Below, one piece after another: positions 5,205 to 12,849 of a stretch of 64,000 bases of DNA. The notes below the pieces were generated by a model that saw only the letters and a program-made list of their open reading frames with translations, did not search any database and was not told the origin of the DNA. The DNA comes from Embleya hyalina (GTDB lineage Bacteria; Actinomycetota; Actinomycetes; Streptomycetales; Streptomycetaceae), in contig NZ_BIFH01000024.1 of assembly GCF_003967355.1 (NCBI RefSeq), forward strand, positions 1-64,000, read 5' to 3'. The position numbers and the translations under genes are program-made. How positions within the stretch are numbered: the first letter of the stretch is position 1; each line of letters begins with the position of its first letter.

Positions 5205-5743
5205 GTTTGCGGTCGGGCCGGCTCGGGGGGTGGGTGGCTTGGCGTCGTCGGCGGGGTTGATGTGGTTTCTGGTCGGGCCGGCGTTGGCGTTCGGTCGGGT
5301 TGGGGTGGCCTCAAACGCCGGCCGGGCTGAATCGGGTGGGCTGACTTGATCGGCTGGGTTCGTCGGGTCGGTCGGATTGGTCGGGCTGACTCGGCCGGGC
5401 TCGGTCGGGTCGGGTTGGGCGGGCTGACTCGGTTGGGTCGGGTTGGCCAGCTCGGTCGGGTTGGCAGGGCTGGGTTGGACGGGCTCGGTCGGGTCGGGCG
5501 GGCTGACTGGGTTGGGTCAGGTTGGCCGGGTTCGGGTCGGCTGGGTCGGGCGGGCTGGGCTGGGCTGGCCGGGCTGGGTCGGTTTGGTTGGGTCGGGCGG
5601 GCTGGGCTGGGTCGGGCGGGCTGGGCTGGGTTGGCCGGGCTGGGTTGGTTTGGGTGGGGTGGGGTGGTTGGGGTGGAATTGGTGGGGTGGGGGGATTCGG
5701 GTTTGGGTGTCGGGTTGGGGTGGCTTGTGGGAGAGGGTGTGAC
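5205..5743. repeat. Low-complexity G/T-rich degenerate tandem repeat between hemE and hemG
   Basis: About 540 bp in which the plus strand is built almost only from permutations of CGGGCTGGGTCGG, TCGGGTTGG and GGGCTGGG units 5-10 bp long, with little A or C. I see no credible gene. The minus strand is open for a long distance but encodes only Pro/Ser/Arg/Gln repeats, a by-product of the composition. Dense GGG runs on the hemG-sense strand suggest quadruplex-forming potential in DNA or in a hemG leader transcript. Repeat copies diverge, which suggests slippage growth followed by decay. Confidence 0.8.
5307..5330. repeat. Short interspersed repeat, copy 2 (CTCAAACGCCGGCCGGGCTGA)
   Basis: This is the second copy of the element described at 5179, in the same orientation, 128 bp further on. 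The core CTCAAACGCCGGCCGGGCTG differs from copy 1 by one base. The two copies bracket the first part of the G/T-rich tract. Confidence 0.6.
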
Positions 5744-7225: not shown

Positions 7226-8023
7226 ATGACGCAAAGCACCTCGGAGAACACCCCGGAACCGGTCGACGCCGCCGCAGCGGTGGTCGACGCCGCCCTCAAC
7301 GCCGACGGCCCCGAGTCCGCGGGCGAATCCGCTCCGGTCCGGCGCAAGGCCCGCGACCTCAACCAGGTGATCAGGTACACGATGTGGTCGGTCTTCCGGC
7401 TCCGTGAGCCGCTGCCGGGTGCGCGGGCCGGGCTGGCGGGCGAGGTGGAGCAGTTGTTCGAGCAGCTGCTCGACAAGGACGTGGTGGTGCGCGGCACCTA
7501 CGACGTCTCCGGCCTGCGCGCCGACGCGGACCTGATGATCTGGTGGCACGCGGAGGACTCGGACGCGCTCCAGGAGGCGTACAACCGCTTCCGGCGCACC
7601 GGCCTGGGCCGGCTGCTGGAGCCGGTGTGGTCGAACATGGCGCTGCACCGTCCGGCCGAGTTCAACAAGAGCCACATCCCGGCCTTCCTGGCCGAGGAGA
7701 CCCCGCGCGACTACGTCGCGGTGTATCCGTTCGTGCGTTCGTACGAGTGGTATCTGCTCGAGGACGACGAGCGCCGCCGGCTGCTCGCCGAGCACGGGCG
7801 GATGGCGCGCGGCTACCCGGACGTGCGGGCCAACACGGTGCCGTCGTTCGCGCTGGGCGACTACGAGTGGATCCTCGCCTTCGAGGCGGACGAGCTGCAC
7901 CGCATCGTCGACCTGATGCGGCACCTGCGCGGCTCGGAGACGCGCCGCCACGTGCGCGAGGAGGTGCCGTTCTACACCGGCCGCCGGCACCCGGTCGCCG
8001 AACTGCTCGCCGGCCTGGCCTGA
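7226..8023 (+). CDS. hemQ: Coproheme decarboxylase (chlorite dismutase family)
   Basis: Converts iron-coproporphyrin III to haem b by two oxidative decarboxylations, the last step of the coproporphyrin-dependent pathway of Gram-positive bacteria. The 265-aa protein has a disordered acidic N-terminus (1-40) and then the Cld/HemQ fold. Motifs are TMWSVFRL, the [20 protein letters not shown] strand pair (115 aa from the end of the extension), [12 protein letters not shown] (Tyr167 is the likely redox Tyr) and [15 protein letters not shown] with proximal His190. It lies 30 bp behind hemG, so the two are probably cotranscribed and coregulated. A ferrochelatase-type hemH/cpfC is not in the window. 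Confidence 0.95.
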
Positions 8024-8115
8024 GCCCGCGCCCCGGTCGGTCGGGCAGCGGGCGAGCGATCGCTCCGACCGACCGAGGGTGCGGTGTCGAACTCGAATCC
8101 GGGTCGGACTCGAAC

Positions 8116-8574
8116 CTAGGTCGAACTCGAACAGGATGATCCGCTCGAGCAGGACGATCCGCTCGAACACGATGAGCCGCTCGAACACGACGACCCGCAG
8201 GACGATCCGCTCGAACAGGACGACCCGCCCGAACCCGAGGAGTCGCCGCCTCCGCCCGAGGCGCAGGACCAGCCGGTGCCGCACCAGGTGTGGTGGCCGT
8301 GCCAGTGGTGATGGTGGTCGTGCGGGTCGTGACCCTGATGCCCCCGGTTCCCCTGCGGGCCGGGTGGCCACGGGCCGGGGTACGGACCGGGGTACGGACC
8401 GGGCCCGCCGCCGTAGGGCCTGCCGGTGCCGGGTGCGTGGCCGGGGGGCGGGCCGGCCGGTCGGCCGAAGGTGTGGCGGAGCCGGCGTCGGGCCGCGCGG
8501 TGGACCCGGACGGCGATCACGATCGGCAGGGCGGCGACGAGGACCGCCACCGCCACGAGCAGCAGCAAGGACAT
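8116..8574 (-). CDS. Membrane-anchored His-rich, Ser/Cys-repeat protein; candidate MNIO substrate
   Basis: No family recognised. The 152-aa product has one N-terminal membrane segment (about 2-23, SLLLLVAVAVLVAALPIVIAV), a basic stretch (HRAARRRLRH) and a Pro/Gly/Tyr-rich linker (40-75). A His cluster follows (79-96, including HDHHHHWHGHH), then a tail of SSGSSC repeats with eight Cys (98, 104, 120, 126, 130, 136, 142, 148). Basic residues after the helix suggest a cytoplasmic tail; if the helix acts as a signal anchor in the other sense, the tail would be outside. It starts 27 bp after the partner-protein stop and ends the TIGR04222 / MNIO / partner operon. MNIO enzymes modify Cys residues of ribosomal peptides, so this tail is a natural candidate substrate, perhaps for copper or another soft metal. 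That role is inference. Confidence 0.7.
   Translation of the reverse strand: MSLLLLVAVAVLVAALPIVIAVRVHRAARRRLRHTFGRPAGPPPGHAPGTGRPYGGGPGPYPGPYPGPWPPGPQGNRGHQGHDPHDHHHHWHGHHTWCGTGWSCASGGGGDSSGSGGSSCSSGSSCGSSCSSGSSCSSGSSCSSGSSCSSST
8131..8238. repeat. 18-bp coding tandem repeat (SSGSSC units)
   Basis: Plus-strand units close to GACGATCCGCTCGAACA(C/G) recur about every 18 bp over roughly 100 bp, with one shortened unit. On the minus strand each encodes Ser-Ser-Gly-Ser-Ser-Cys at the C-terminus of the gene at 8116-8574. Copy number is likely to vary by slippage. Confidence 0.8.
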
Positions 8575-8600
8575 GTTGCCGACCCCCGTGTGGGTGGTGC

Positions 8601-8996
8601 CTACCCGTGGCCGGCCGGCGCACGGGATGCGAATCGGGTGCGCAGCCGGGCCCATCGGGACGGCTTTCGTTCGACGAACACCTCGGCCAGCGCCTTCGGC
8701 AGCGCGTCCCGCTCCCACAGATGGGCCGCGAAGGCGTGTACGTCGGCGCGGGTGCCTCCCTCGGCGGGCTTCGGGTGGACCAGGGCCCAGGTCATGAACT
8801 CGCCCGGCCAGCGCGGGCCCAGCGTCGTCGCCAACTCCGGGAGCGCGCGCAGCGCCGAGTCGCGCCGTTTGGCGGCCAGCGCGCGGGCCTGTACGCGGAT
8901 CCGGTCCGGGTCGAAACCCGGCGGTGTCGGCCCGCCGGCGACCAGTGCCGTGAGCAGCGCGGTCTGCCGTGCGGCCAGCCGCTCGCGCGCGCTCAT
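8601..8996 (-). CDS. Small partner protein of the DUF692/MNIO enzyme
   Basis: A 131-aa soluble protein, mostly helical, beginning [21 protein letters not shown] and containing [20 protein letters not shown] and a basic C-terminus. Its ATG overlaps the stop of the DUF692 gene (ATGA), so translation is coupled. MNIO enzymes of the MbnB, TglH and BufB groups usually need a small partner (MbnC, TglI or DUF2063-type) that recruits the precursor peptide. The size, position and coupling suggest that role, but I do not see a clear sequence match to a named partner family. Homologues next to DUF692 genes occur in other streptomycetes, from memory. Confidence 0.75.
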
Positions 8997-9805
8997 CGGC
9001 GCGCCGCCGTCCGGTCCACCACGGCGCGGATCGCGGCCAACTCGGCGGCGATCTCGCCCGCCGTCGGGAAGTCGCCGTCGCGTTCGAGCAGTACGCGCGG
9101 CGGCGGGCGCAGCGCGCACAGCGTGGCCAGCACCTCCAGGATCGGCTCGGTCACCGGGTGCGCGTGGGTGTCGTGCCACAGGCCGTCGCGCTCGACGCCG
9201 CCGGCGACGTGTACGTACTCCACCGCCTCCAGCGGGAGTTCGGCCAGCGCGGCGGCCGGGTCGACGCCGTGGTTGATCCGCTGGGTGTGCAGGTTGGCCA
9301 CGTCGATCAGCAGTCGCACGCCGGTGCGCTCGACCAGTTCGGTGAGGAAGCGGGCCTCGCTCATCTCGTTGTCGGGCCAGGTCAGCAGTGTCGCCGGGTT
9401 CTCCAGGGCGAGCGGGACCGGCAGCGCGTCCTGGGCGACGCGGACGTTTTCCGTGACGACGTCGAGCGCGTCCCACGTCATCGGTGTCGGCAGCAGGTGA
9501 CCGGCCTCCATGCCGCCGGCCCGGACGAACGCCAGGTGTTCGCTGACCACCGGCGAGCCCAGGGCGTCGGCCACTTCGGCCAGCCGGGCCAGCCGCGCGG
9601 GGTCGGGACGGTCCGCGCCGGCCAGGCCGAGGCCGACGCCGTGCGGGATCACCTCGACGCCGCGCTCGCGCAACACGCGCAGCGACTCGGGCAGGTGTCC
9701 GACGCACACGTTCTCCGCGACGACCTCGACGAAGTCGACGCCGGCCAGGCGCTCGACGGTCAGATCGATCTCCGGCCGCCATCCGATTCCCACCGCTGTC
9801 CGCAT
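8993..9805 (-). CDS. DUF692 / MNIO-family multinuclear non-haem iron oxidase
   Basis: A 270-aa TIM-barrel protein of the DUF692 family, which includes MbnB, TglH, ChrH, ApyH and BufB. These are di- or tri-iron enzymes that modify Cys or C-terminal residues of ribosomal peptides. Expected ligands are all present: His55 ([10 protein letters not shown]), His90 (VSEHLAF), Glu135/Asn136 ([10 protein letters not shown]), Asp168-Asn171-His173 (LIDVANLH), His199 (YVHVAGG), His211/His214 ([10 protein letters not shown]) and Glu241/Asp243 (LLERDGDFP). The start is ATG at 9805. It lies between the TIGR04222 gene (129 bp upstream) and its overlapping partner. The substrate is unknown; the two Cys-tailed membrane proteins of the operon are the obvious candidates. 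Confidence 0.92.
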
Positions 9806-9934
9806 ACGTCCAGCATGGCGGGTCCGTCCCGGACCGAAACAGGCGGAGTTCCCTCGGTTCGCCCGCCTGAGCGCGCCGGGTGGCGAGCGGCCGGCGACGC
9901 GGGCGGGTCGCGGGCCGCCCGGCGCTCGGCGCGG

Positions 9935-10810
9935 TCAGTTGCCGCAGCCGTCGGCGGTGCCGCCGCAGGAGCCCGCCCGGGCGCCCTGGGGGGAGGCGCA
10001 GGAAGTGCCGCCGCACCAGGTGGACTCCGGGGCGCGGCCGGCGGGGGTGGGCGCGTTGCGGCGGAAGATCTCCTTGATCACCGGGTCGGGGAAGCGGTCC
10101 AGGCCCCACAGGGCGACCGTGCCCAGGCCGTCGGCGCCGAGCGCGGCGACGGCCGCCTCGTCGCGGCGCAGCCGGATCAGCCGGCGCGTGGTCGGCGCGG
10201 TGGGCACCACCCGCTCGCCGAACACGCCCAGGAGCAGCAGGCCCGCGACGCACGCCTGGCTGCCGATCACCGCGAGCAGCAGGCCCACCCACGGCAGTGC
10301 GCCCGAGGTCGCGTCGTCGGCCCGGACGAAGCCCGCGACGGCGGTGGCCAGGCCCAGGGGGAGGGTGGCGAACAGCGCCCAGCGGGGGAGCCGGCGCGGC
10401 CCCGCGTCCGGGCGGGCGATCAGGCCGGCCGCGAACAGGTCGGCGCCGATGCCCTGGATCTCCGGGGCCGCGGCCAGCCGGGTCCGCAGGTCGCGCAGCG
10501 GCAGGCCGCCGTACTCCCGATCCAGGATCCGCAGCGGCGCGTCGCCCGTCGCGTCGGCCGCGGGTGCCCGGGCCGCGACCACCTGCCCGTCGCGGTTCAG
10601 GTGCAGCGCGCCCTCGCCGAGCAGGGCCAGGATCGACACGTCGACCGCGCGGGCCGCGCCGCCGCCGACGAACGCGTATTCGGCCGCGCCCAGTTCGGCC
10701 AGGCGCGCCCGGTCCGCCCGTCGGCCGCCGCGCCGGGCGGACCCGATGGCGACGCCGAGTACGAGCGCCGTCCAGACCGAGTACGCGAGGGGTGGCAGCC
10801 AGGGATTCAT
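9935..10810 (-). CDS. TIGR04222-domain membrane protein with Cys-containing C-terminal tail
   Basis: A 291-aa protein with an N-terminal membrane helix (about 5-24) followed by a soluble domain (RLAELGAAEYAFVGGGAARAVDVSILALLGEG is not quoted further; it covers about 37-67). Two more helices lie near 145-162 and 173-197, and there is a second soluble part. The tail from residue 262 is short and Gly/Ser/Cys-rich, with Cys266, Cys271, Cys282 and Cys289 (TWCGGTSCAS; SCGGTADGCGN). The architecture fits TIGR04222, a domain I recall being typically followed by a low-complexity Gly/Cys-rich tail. It is the first gene of the putative MNIO operon and starts 133 bp after msrB. Function is unknown. The Cys tail could be a second MNIO target. 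Confidence 0.82.
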   Translation of the reverse strand: MNPWLPPLAYSVWTALVLGVAIGSARRGGRRADRARLAELGAAEYAFVGGGAARAVDVSILALLGEGALHLNRDGQVVAARAPAADATGDAPLRILDREYGGLPLRDLRTRLAAAPEIQGIGADLFAAGLIARPDAGPRRLPRWALFATLPLGLATAVAGFVRADDATSGALPWVGLLLAVIGSQACVAGLLLLGVFGERVVPTAPTTRRLIRLRRDEAAVAALGADGLGTVALWGLDRFPDPVIKEIFRRNAPTPAGRAPESTWCGGTSCASPQGARAGSCGGTADGCGN

Positions 10811-10943
10811 GGTCCCCAGACATAGCGGACGCACCCGCCGCGCGCGGGCTCGATGTGAGTTTTGCCGCACCGCCCGTACCGATGTTTGAACGGGCGACGG
10901 CGGCGCCGACCGGGCCGGCCCGGGGGCCGACCCGCGCCTCGGC

Positions 10944-11354
10944 TCAGCCCTGCGGGTCCGGCTCCAGGGTCAGCGAGATGGAGTTGATGCAGTAGCGCTG
11001 GTCGGTGGGCGTCCCGTAGCCCTCGCCCTCGAACACGTGGCCCAGGTGCGAGCCACAGGTCCCGCAGCGCACCTCGACCCGGGTCATGCCCATCGTGTCG
11101 TCCTCGATGTATTCGACCCGGTCCTCGGCCAGCGGCGCGTAGAACGACGGCCAGCCGCAGTGGCTGTCGAACTTGGTGTCGGAGCGGAACAGCTCCGCCT
11201 TGCACGCCCGACAGCGGTAGACGCCGGTCGTCTTGGTCTCGGTGTACTCGCCCGTCCAGGCACGCTCGGTGCCCGCCCGACGCAGCACCCGGAACTCGTC
11301 CGGGGTCAGCTCGGCCCGCCACTGGTCGTCGGTCTTCTCGATTTCGTAGGCCAT
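10944..11354 (-). CDS. msrB: Peptide-methionine (R)-S-oxide reductase
   Basis: Reduces the R-epimer of methionine sulfoxide in proteins, a repair activity after oxidative stress. The 136-aa cytosolic product shows the two zinc CxxC pairs (YRCRACKAEL; VRCGTCGSHLGHVF), the motif HCGWPSFYAP and the catalytic Cys in RYCINSISL. The second, resolving Cys position near the substrate loop should be compared with MsrB types. The start is ATG at 11354 (MAYEIEKTDDQWRAEL). It lies 70 bp downstream of murC and 133 bp upstream of the TIGR04222 gene. Confidence 0.95.
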   Translation of the reverse strand: MAYEIEKTDDQWRAELTPDEFRVLRRAGTERAWTGEYTETKTTGVYRCRACKAELFRSDTKFDSHCGWPSFYAPLAEDRVEYIEDDTMGMTRVEVRCGTCGSHLGHVFEGEGYGTPTDQRYCINSISLTLEPDPQG

Positions 11355-11424
11355 GTGCACATCCAACACGCAACGGCGCCGCGACGTTCCCCGAGGGGAC
11401 GGCACGGCGCCGGCGGGTGTCGGC

Positions 11425-12849
11425 TCAGCGGGCGGCGGTGCTGCGGGCGCGGATCGCGTCCAGGATCTCGGGGCCGAGCAGGGTCACGTCGCCCGCGCCC
11501 ATGGTCAGGACCAGATCGCCGGGGCGGGCCAGCGCGGCCACCGAGCCGGCCACGTCGGACCAGCTGTGCTCGGTGCGCACCAGGCCGCCGTTGTCCAGCG
11601 CGGCGTGCGCGATGATGTTGCTGGTCACGCCGGGCTGCGGGTCCTCCCGGGCGGCGTAGATGTCCATCACCACGGCGATGTCGGCGGCGGCGAGCGCGCG
11701 GCCCATCTCCACCCCGAGCTGCTGGGTGCGGCTGAACAGGTGCGGCTGGTACACCGCGATCACCCGACCCGCGCCCACCGCGCCGCGGGCGGTGGCCAGA
11801 TCGGCGGTGATCTCGGTGGGGTGGTGCGCGTACGAGTCGACGACCCGGATGCCGCTCTCCTCGCCCTTGAGCTGGAACCGCCGGCGCACGCCCTGGTAGT
11901 TGGCCAGTCCCTCGGCCATGCGCCGCGGCTCGACGCCGAGCGCCAGGCCCACCGCGAGCGCCATCACCGCGTTGGAGGCGTTGTGCCGCCCCGGCACCGC
12001 GACGGTCAGCACCGACTCGCCGCCCACGGCCTTGCCGTGCACGGTGACCCGGCTGCTCAGGCCGGACGCCTCGATCCGCGCCAGGCGCAGATCCGCGCCC
12101 TCGTGTTCGCCGACCGTGACCACGTTCAGCGTCGGCGCGGAGACCGCCAGCCGCTCGCGCAGGGCGCCGGCGCCGGCGTCGTCGGCGGAGAGCACCAGGG
12201 TGCCGCCGGGCACGATCCGGCCGGCGAAGATCTCGAACGCGTCGAGCACGTCGTCCAGCGAGCCGTAGTTGGCGTGGTGGTCCAGTTCCACGTTCAGCAC
12301 CACGGCCACCTCGGGCGCGTACTTGTGGAAGCTGCGGTCGCTCTCGTCCGCCTCGGCCACGAAGATGTCGCCCAGGCCGTGGTGGGCGTTGCTGCCCGCC
12401 TCGTTGAGGTCGGCGCCGATCGCGAAGGAGGGGTCCAGGCCGAGCGAGGTCAGGCCGACCGCGAGCATGCTCGTCGTGGTGGTCTTGCCGTGCGTGCCCG
12501 CGACGGCCACCGAGCGCCGGCCGTCCATCAGTCGGGCCAGCGCGTCCGCGCGGTGCACGATCGGGATGCCCCGCTCGCGCGCGACGACCAGCTCGGGGTT
12601 GTCCTCCCGGATCGCCGAGGAGACCACCACGCACGAGACGTCCTCGGCGACGTTCGCCCGATCGTGGCCCACGTGCACCGTGCAGCCGAGCCGGCGCAGC
12701 GCCAGCACCTGGGTGGAGTCCTTGGCGTCGCTGCCGGAGACCCTCGCGCCGCGGATCGCGAGGATCTTGGCGAGCCCCGACATGCCGGCACCACCGATGC
12801 CGACGAAGAACGGGCTGCCGAGGTCGACGGGCTCGGCGGGGGGTGCCAT
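11425..12849 (-). CDS. murC: UDP-N-acetylmuramate--L-alanine ligase
   Basis: ATP-dependent addition of L-Ala to UDP-MurNAc, the first peptide step of peptidoglycan precursor synthesis, in the cytosol. The 474-aa protein has the UDP-binding fold (FFVGIGGAGMSGLAKIL), the Mur ligase P-loop (VAGTHGKTTTTSML), the EADESD magnesium motif (FVAEADESDRSF), a C-terminal domain opening with GVRRRFQLKG, and SYAHHPTEI. The start is ATG at 12849 with AAGGAG upstream. The gene stands outside the main dcw cluster, as in several streptomycetes; the stress-protein-like gene upstream lies 59 bp away. Confidence 0.96.
   Translation of the reverse strand: MAPPAEPVDLGSPFFVGIGGAGMSGLAKILAIRGARVSGSDAKDSTQVLALRRLGCTVHVGHDRANVAEDVSCVVVSSAIREDNPELVVARERGIPIVHRADALARLMDGRRSVAVAGTHGKTTTTSMLAVGLTSLGLDPSFAIGADLNEAGSNAHHGLGDIFVAEADESDRSFHKYAPEVAVVLNVELDHHANYGSLDDVLDAFEIFAGRIVPGGTLVLSADDAGAGALRERLAVSAPTLNVVTVGEHEGADLRLARIEASGLSSRVTVHGKAVGGESVLTVAVPGRHNASNAVMALAVGLALGVEPRRMAEGLANYQGVRRRFQLKGEESGIRVVDSYAHHPTEITADLATARGAVGAGRVIAVYQPHLFSRTQQLGVEMGRALAAADIAVVMDIYAAREDPQPGVTSNIIAHAALDNGGLVRTEHSWSDVAGSVAALARPGDLVLTMGAGDVTLLGPEILDAIRARSTAAR

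Follow-up and report, generated by a model that had tools for sequence, protein, structure and literature searches.

The operon at positions 8116..10810 of the window is a real and conserved MNIO (DUF692) system of an already predicted kind, extended by a second membrane protein that is specific to Embleya. The window comprises the 64,000 nucleotides of Embleya hyalina contig NZ_BIFH01000024.1 that we analyzed. The operon encodes a TIGR04222 membrane protein with a Cys-bearing C-terminal tail, and within a sample of Streptomycetaceae such tails are confined to genomes that possess an MNIO, which is evidence that the Cys tails depend on the presence of this enzyme. New here are the co-occurrence counts, a W-C-[G/A/S] motif in the tails, the predicted cytosolic placement of the tails, the fusion of enzyme and partner, and the Embleya-only His/Cys protein.

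Gene content and conservation of the locus

All four minus-strand genes described in an earlier sequence-only reading are present. The TIGR04222 membrane protein (291 residues; 9935..10810; 66.9 bits against a domain cut-off of 43) is followed after 129 nt by the MNIO (270 residues; 8993..9805; PF05114, 268.4 bits against a cut-off of 25). The start of a short partner (131 residues; 8601..8996) overlaps the MNIO stop (ATGA), and a 152-residue single-pass protein, here called the His/Cys protein (8116..8574), begins 26 nt further on. The same four genes occur in three other Embleya genomes (G004, G020, and G031), so that, with the window's own, four Embleya genomes carry them. Among named relatives, Embleya scabrispora comes closest (89% for the enzyme; records very near the window were possibly left out). 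No sigma-70-like promoter or terminator was found in the region 7900–11500.

Two flanking genes are given for context only: a convergent plus-strand gene of the chlorite dismutase family (7226..8023; PF06778, 261 bits), a HemQ-like gene here called HemQ, and an upstream SelR-domain (MsrB-like) gene on the minus strand (10944..11369; PF01641, 165 bits). Among full-length loci, the flanking sequence contains a HemQ-like gene in 58 of 72 fetched and 52 of 62 named cases. The HemQ/HemY neighborhood stays where the MNIO is absent, and a locus outside the family (L134) gave no HemQ, HemY, MsrB, or MurC match. We therefore read the proximity of HemQ as synteny and do not follow the earlier suggestion of a functional link to heme. 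Elsewhere in the window, G-rich tandem repeats (5379–5723; periods 5–33) fill much of the gap between a HemE-like and a HemY-like gene and give rise to long spurious ORFs in several frames.

The DUF692 enzyme is intact, as had been claimed. Residues His-55, His-90, Glu-135, Asp-168, Asn-171, His-199, Asp-212, His-214, and Glu-241, presumably the iron ligands, each match an identical residue in the aligned solved MNIO chains, and none of them varies across the 12 sequences of alignment A1, which include the window enzyme. The best NCBIfam model is BufB (NF050167), whose 195.7 bits do not reach the equivalog cut-off of 310; the MbnB model (TIGR04159) gives 40.3 bits, below its equivalog cut-off of 325. 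The same genome holds a second, distant PF05114 match (46.5 bits; L002, contig C13, ∼448956–449516) in a 588-residue protein directly downstream of a putative radical-SAM enzyme, possibly a separate peptide-modification cluster. Eight Streptomycetaceae genomes (L009–L016) have a much higher-scoring PF05114 gene (∼350–376 bits), apparently of another subtype.

The partner is predicted to be all-helical. It has no Pfam or NCBIfam match up to E = 1 and lacks the DUF2063 signature; with its gene placed after that of the MNIO, it corresponds to the PME-type 2 partners of Antoine et al. (2025). Its best structural match is MbnC among Foldseek matches of which none reached E ≤ 0.001; TglI and NGO1945 were not among these matches, yet they are not excluded. 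Neither the partner nor the TIGR04222 profile gave a usable match when searched by sequence against solved structures. In two locus sets of 80 each, partner and MNIO form a single ORF at 23 and 58 loci, and they also share one frame in Embleya genome G031.

A residue count confirmed the His cluster and the eight Cys reported for the single-pass His/Cys protein, a second candidate substrate. Ten of its 13 His fall within residues 79–95 (8290..8340, minus strand). The Cys (98, 104, 120, 126, 130, 136, 142, and 148) are spaced by 6 residues five times, by 4 once, and by 16 once. The Cys tail (residues 98–152; 8119..8283, minus strand) directly follows Trp-97 and is encoded in part by an 18-bp tandem repeat at 8126–8234. 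The architecture, consisting of a TM helix, an Arg-rich stretch, the His cluster, and a tail rich in Ser and Gly in which Cys recurs at regular intervals, is kept in all four Embleya genomes sampled, and the differences to the nearest relative (G004) number 11, 16, and 30 at codon positions 1, 2, and 3 over 136 aligned codons. Because of this shared architecture and codon-position constraint, we regard the ORF as a real gene. It directly follows the partner gene in all four Embleya genomes and did not turn up outside this genus in two overlapping sets of 80 fetched and 80 named loci. The His/Cys tail is similar to the long tails that TIGR04222 proteins bear in other genera. When we used it as a query for free-standing Cys tails in 18 genomes, only the window was found; known tails in G014 and G024 were missed, so that this result carries no weight.

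Association of the Cys tails with the MNIO

The TIGR04222 protein comprises a TM helix (residues 5–27), a soluble domain (∼34–133), and two further TM helices (143–163 and 172–198), followed in the model by a helical C-domain and a disordered Cys tail, the first candidate substrate (residues 262–291; 9938..10027, minus strand). All four tail Cys of the sequence-only reading (266, 271, 282, and 289) are present, and a further Cys lies at position 187.

The first tail Cys is preceded by Trp-265 and followed by Gly, and the stretch T-W-C-G occurs both in the TIGR04222 tail and in the His/Cys protein of the window; the other three Embleya genomes have S-C in place of W-C in the His/Cys protein. 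A W-C-[G/A/S] motif is found in 88 of 109 distinct Cys tails of MNIO loci (Gly in 50, Ala in 35, and Ser in 3), a set in which one entry (L179, 7620–8525) is probably no true tail and in another (L169) the W-C lies immediately ahead of the segment that was read. The motif contains the first Cys of the tail in 75 of these 88, and 21 of the 109 tails lack W-C. Of the 111 Trp in these tails, 88 stand directly before Cys, at a Cys share of 7.8% of tail residues. In the genome sample, W-C is present in 20 of 31 MNIO-adjacent versus 2 of 10 non-adjacent Cys tails. A different kind of Cys tail (GGCGGCGGC or GGGSSCGGGGGCGGGGCGG), without W-C, was observed on TIGR04222 proteins away from any MNIO, both in the window's own genome (L003 and L004) and in other Embleya (L271, L276, L280, and L292).

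Of 200 sampled Streptomycetaceae genomes, 158 possess PF05114 genes and 42 do not. We searched 84 of these genomes for TIGR04222, namely all 42 that lack PF05114 and 42 of the 158 that bear it. The number of candidates scored per genome was capped (in one of the searches at 38 of up to 90), so that copies may have been missed in either group, and genes running off contig ends were left out of the count. TIGR04222 was found in 37 MNIO-positive genomes, 28 of which have at least one Cys tail and 9 none. The 21 MNIO-negative genomes with TIGR04222 (23 genes; one genome, G050, with a weak match of 22.4 bits, under the cut-off) have no Cys tail at all. Fisher's test gives p = 4.6e-9, uncorrected for ancestry.

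The same pattern is seen within single genera. In Kitasatospora (g14), Cys tails occur in 8 of 9 MNIO-positive versus 0 of 7 MNIO-negative genomes, and the one exception (G027) has only a distant MNIO (E 1.9e-35). Genera g6 (5/5 versus 0/3) and g3 (1/1 versus 0/6) agree, and no support is added by g9 (Streptomyces; 1/6 versus 0/1), g13 (0/1 versus 0/2), g16 (0/1 versus 0/1), and g5 (0/1). MNIO-positive Kitasatospora loci, for example L048, L054, and L057, have the order MNIO, partner, TIGR-A with a Cys tail, and TIGR-B without one, followed by HemQ on the other strand. In the seven MNIO-negative Kitasatospora genomes, TIGR-B is directly beside HemQ in six and one gene away in one (G154); MNIO, partner, and TIGR-A are absent both from the space between the two genes and from their immediate flanks. 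Across the phylum, six of 149 sampled genomes have a TIGR04222 match above the cut-off, and five of these have PF05114; the match in the sixth (G226) is frame-broken and its tail unreadable.

The restriction of Cys tails to MNIO-positive genomes, the joint absence of the genes in Kitasatospora, and the enzyme–partner fusion bear out the view that enzyme, partner, and Cys-tailed protein behave as one unit. The TIGR04222 gene need not be a neighbor of the MNIO gene: among the 28 such genes that are non-adjacent in MNIO-positive genomes, 10 encode a Cys tail as well (one gene counted as non-adjacent, in G028, may be adjacent, as the MNIO position is lacking), and the MNIO may thus act in trans. 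TIGR-B adjoins HemQ in many Streptomycetaceae (L057, L306, L310, and others) even without an MNIO, which suggests a separate role for this paralogue.

Among 80 named MNIO loci, 52 have a Cys-tailed TIGR04222 gene nearby, 15 have only TIGR04222 without a multi-Cys tail, and 13, some of them cut by contig ends, have none. We searched 21 of the 28 genomes in the latter two groups as a whole. Eighteen lack a TIGR04222 tail with at least two Cys (in four of them a glycine tail with just one Cys is present), one (L242, G361) has a W-C-G tail that is truncated at the end of a contig, and two (L254 and L255) encode short, divergent TIGR04222-like proteins that contain 6 and 3 Cys. Part of Streptomyces (these 18 of 21 genomes) thus retains enzyme and partner with no multi-Cys TIGR04222 tail detectable, which corresponds in part to the evidence that the sequence-only reading had named against its proposal; this does not apply to Embleya. 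The TIGR04222 tail therefore cannot be the sole substrate across the family.

Two further groups of proteins were observed in Streptomyces. The divergent short TIGR04222-like proteins (L250, L252, L253, L254, L255, and L257) end in a poly-glycine stretch that opens with a single Cys (CGGGGG); two of them have several Cys. A small conserved six-Cys protein, zinc-ribbon-like and ending in ACSG, is encoded a few genes from the MNIO at some loci without a Cys-tailed TIGR04222 protein (L121 3039–3218, L133 3026–3217, L148 7779–8030, and L052 9522–9710).

Membrane side of the tails

The tails had been placed at the surface by the sequence-only reading, and predicted topology puts the low-complexity TIGR04222 tails in the periplasm according to Antoine et al. 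(PMC12452194). Our calculations point to the opposite side for both tails. The charge count was anchored on a conserved domain motif, which was widened after a narrower version had left out 91 hits; of 217 profile hits, 38 without the anchor motif, 7 without room for TM helices, and 9 duplicates were removed, and 163 were kept. Among the Cys-tailed TIGR04222 proteins, 65 of 67 usable sequences favor a cytosolic tail and 2 the reverse (12 of 79 fell outside the hydropathy limits). Of the Cys-less proteins, 83 of 84 were usable, with 67 for a cytosolic tail and 16 against. All homologues of the His/Cys protein show the charge bias of a cytosolic tail. An earlier count (cytosolic tail in 15 of 38 Cys-tailed and 15 of 26 Cys-less proteins) was discarded, as its sequences had been trimmed after TM1, with a mean “TM1” end at residue 93.

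A likely kinship with DUF2207 proteins, which have a signal-peptide-like start, an outer domain, and a TM helix ahead of the part in common with TIGR04222, is consistent with this orientation. DUF2207_C does not match the TIGR04222 protein of the window and matches 4 of 29 relatives (best E 4.1e-4). An alignment of TIGR04222 proteins against five Pfam-confirmed DUF2207 proteins gave 93% (E 2.8e-7), and the window protein alone gave 0.4%. Sequence support for GPP34/GOLPH3 is weak (2 of 29 TIGR04222 members, best E 0.0038). Taken together, the charge bias, the three-helix model, and the likely DUF2207_C homology suggest that the TIGR04222 and His/Cys tails are on the cytosolic side.

Proposed function and relation to known systems

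We propose that a cytosolic MNIO and an MbnC/DUF2063-like helper would oxidatively modify Cys in the disordered C-terminal tails of membrane proteins. These tails would be anchored at the cytosolic face of the plasma membrane: the TIGR04222 protein would bear one, and in Embleya the single-pass His/Cys protein would bear a second, longer one. We infer that the tails are substrates, and by analogy with bufferins the Cys chemistry may be thiooxazole-like; the modified tails might then constitute a membrane-tethered cytosolic thiol/imidazole trap for a metal, most likely Cu(I). For the proposal as a whole, we see the chances as evenly balanced. More tentatively, and with greater doubt than trust, we suggest a system for the modification of proteins and not of secreted peptides, in which the MNIO would rewrite Cys in permanent inner-face tails and the tail would be a portable module, carried by a TIGR04222/GPP34-like or by the Embleya one-helix His-rich anchor and served by one enzyme, partly in trans.

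The strongest competitor, still rather unlikely in our view, is that the MNIO acts on a small unannotated peptide or another protein, while the tail thiols stay unmodified, with metal or redox activity of their own, and the tail genes just accompany that of the enzyme. The many Streptomyces that have MNIO and partner but no multi-Cys TIGR04222 tail would fit, as would the modification of non-Cys residues by some MNIOs (PMC12452194); such co-travel sits poorly, however, with the lack of any Cys tail in the 21 MNIO-negative genomes with TIGR04222 and with the joint absence of the three genes from the MNIO-negative Kitasatospora genomes. A different role for the two tails, with only that of TIGR04222 as substrate and the His/Cys protein as an independent metal-binding protein that lies at the end of the Embleya operon by chance, seems improbable. 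Its restriction to Embleya and the absence of W-C in the other three genomes could be read in this way, but the gene keeps its place directly after the partner in all four genomes, and its tail is similar to TIGR04222 tails from other genera.

Quite improbable, finally, is an extracytoplasmic placement of MNIO-modified tails, which would then buffer metal at the surface or in the periplasm as bufferins do. The published topology and the Sec signal peptides and periplasmic function of bufferins (PMC12452194) argue for this placement, whereas the charge bias of 65 of 67 Cys-tailed proteins and of all His/Cys homologues and the layout of the DUF2207 relatives argue against it. If inner-face modification is true, a family known for small metal-binding peptides would extend to cytosol-facing membrane proteins. 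The tail motif, a topology that contradicts the published one, and the natural presence/absence pairs in Kitasatospora offer concrete handles on this question.

The system cannot be called undescribed, as the sequence-only reading had it. Antoine et al. (2025; PMC12452194) report that TIGR04222 proteins are found mostly in Actinomycetota and often beside MNIO genes, propose their Cys-bearing Gly/Ser tails as MNIO substrates with PME-type 2 partners, and note that more than one-quarter of TIGR04222 proteins have no C-proximal Cys and one-third of TIGR04222 genomes no MNIO. Their clusters share with ours a TIGR04222 protein with a C-terminal Gly/Ser/Cys tail, the MNIO, and then a partner without DUF2063 signature, whereas Embleya has the second His/Cys membrane protein, and the tails are probably cytosolic instead of periplasmic. 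The passages of that paper that we consulted mention neither the W-C motif nor a dependence of the tails on the MNIO at the level of genomes, and the word “Trp” is absent from its main text. We found no tested function for a TIGR04222-type system in the literature searched.

Like the TIGR04222 proteins, DUF2207 membrane proteins combine a TM helix, a soluble domain, a TM hairpin, and a Gly/Ser-rich C-terminal tail; TIGR04222 proteins, however, lack the DUF2207 N-terminal domain, and the tails of the five DUF2207 proteins are Cys-free, four of them ending in GSW. The GPP34 proteins (GOLPH3/Vps74) are soluble, whereas TIGR04222 adds a TM helix and a TM hairpin. Bufferin systems (BufB with DUF2282 or Buf2 precursors) resemble the operon in the top NCBIfam model of the MNIO and in a Cys-rich candidate substrate. 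They differ in that our enzyme stays below the BufB cut-off, neither the TIGR04222 nor the His/Cys protein matches a bufferin family in Pfam and NCBIfam up to E = 1, and the partner has no DUF2063 signature. With methanobactin MbnB–MbnC, the operon shares an MNIO and a predicted helical partner whose best structural match is MbnC, but it falls far short of the MbnB model, and its candidate substrates are membrane proteins and not a short leader–core peptide.
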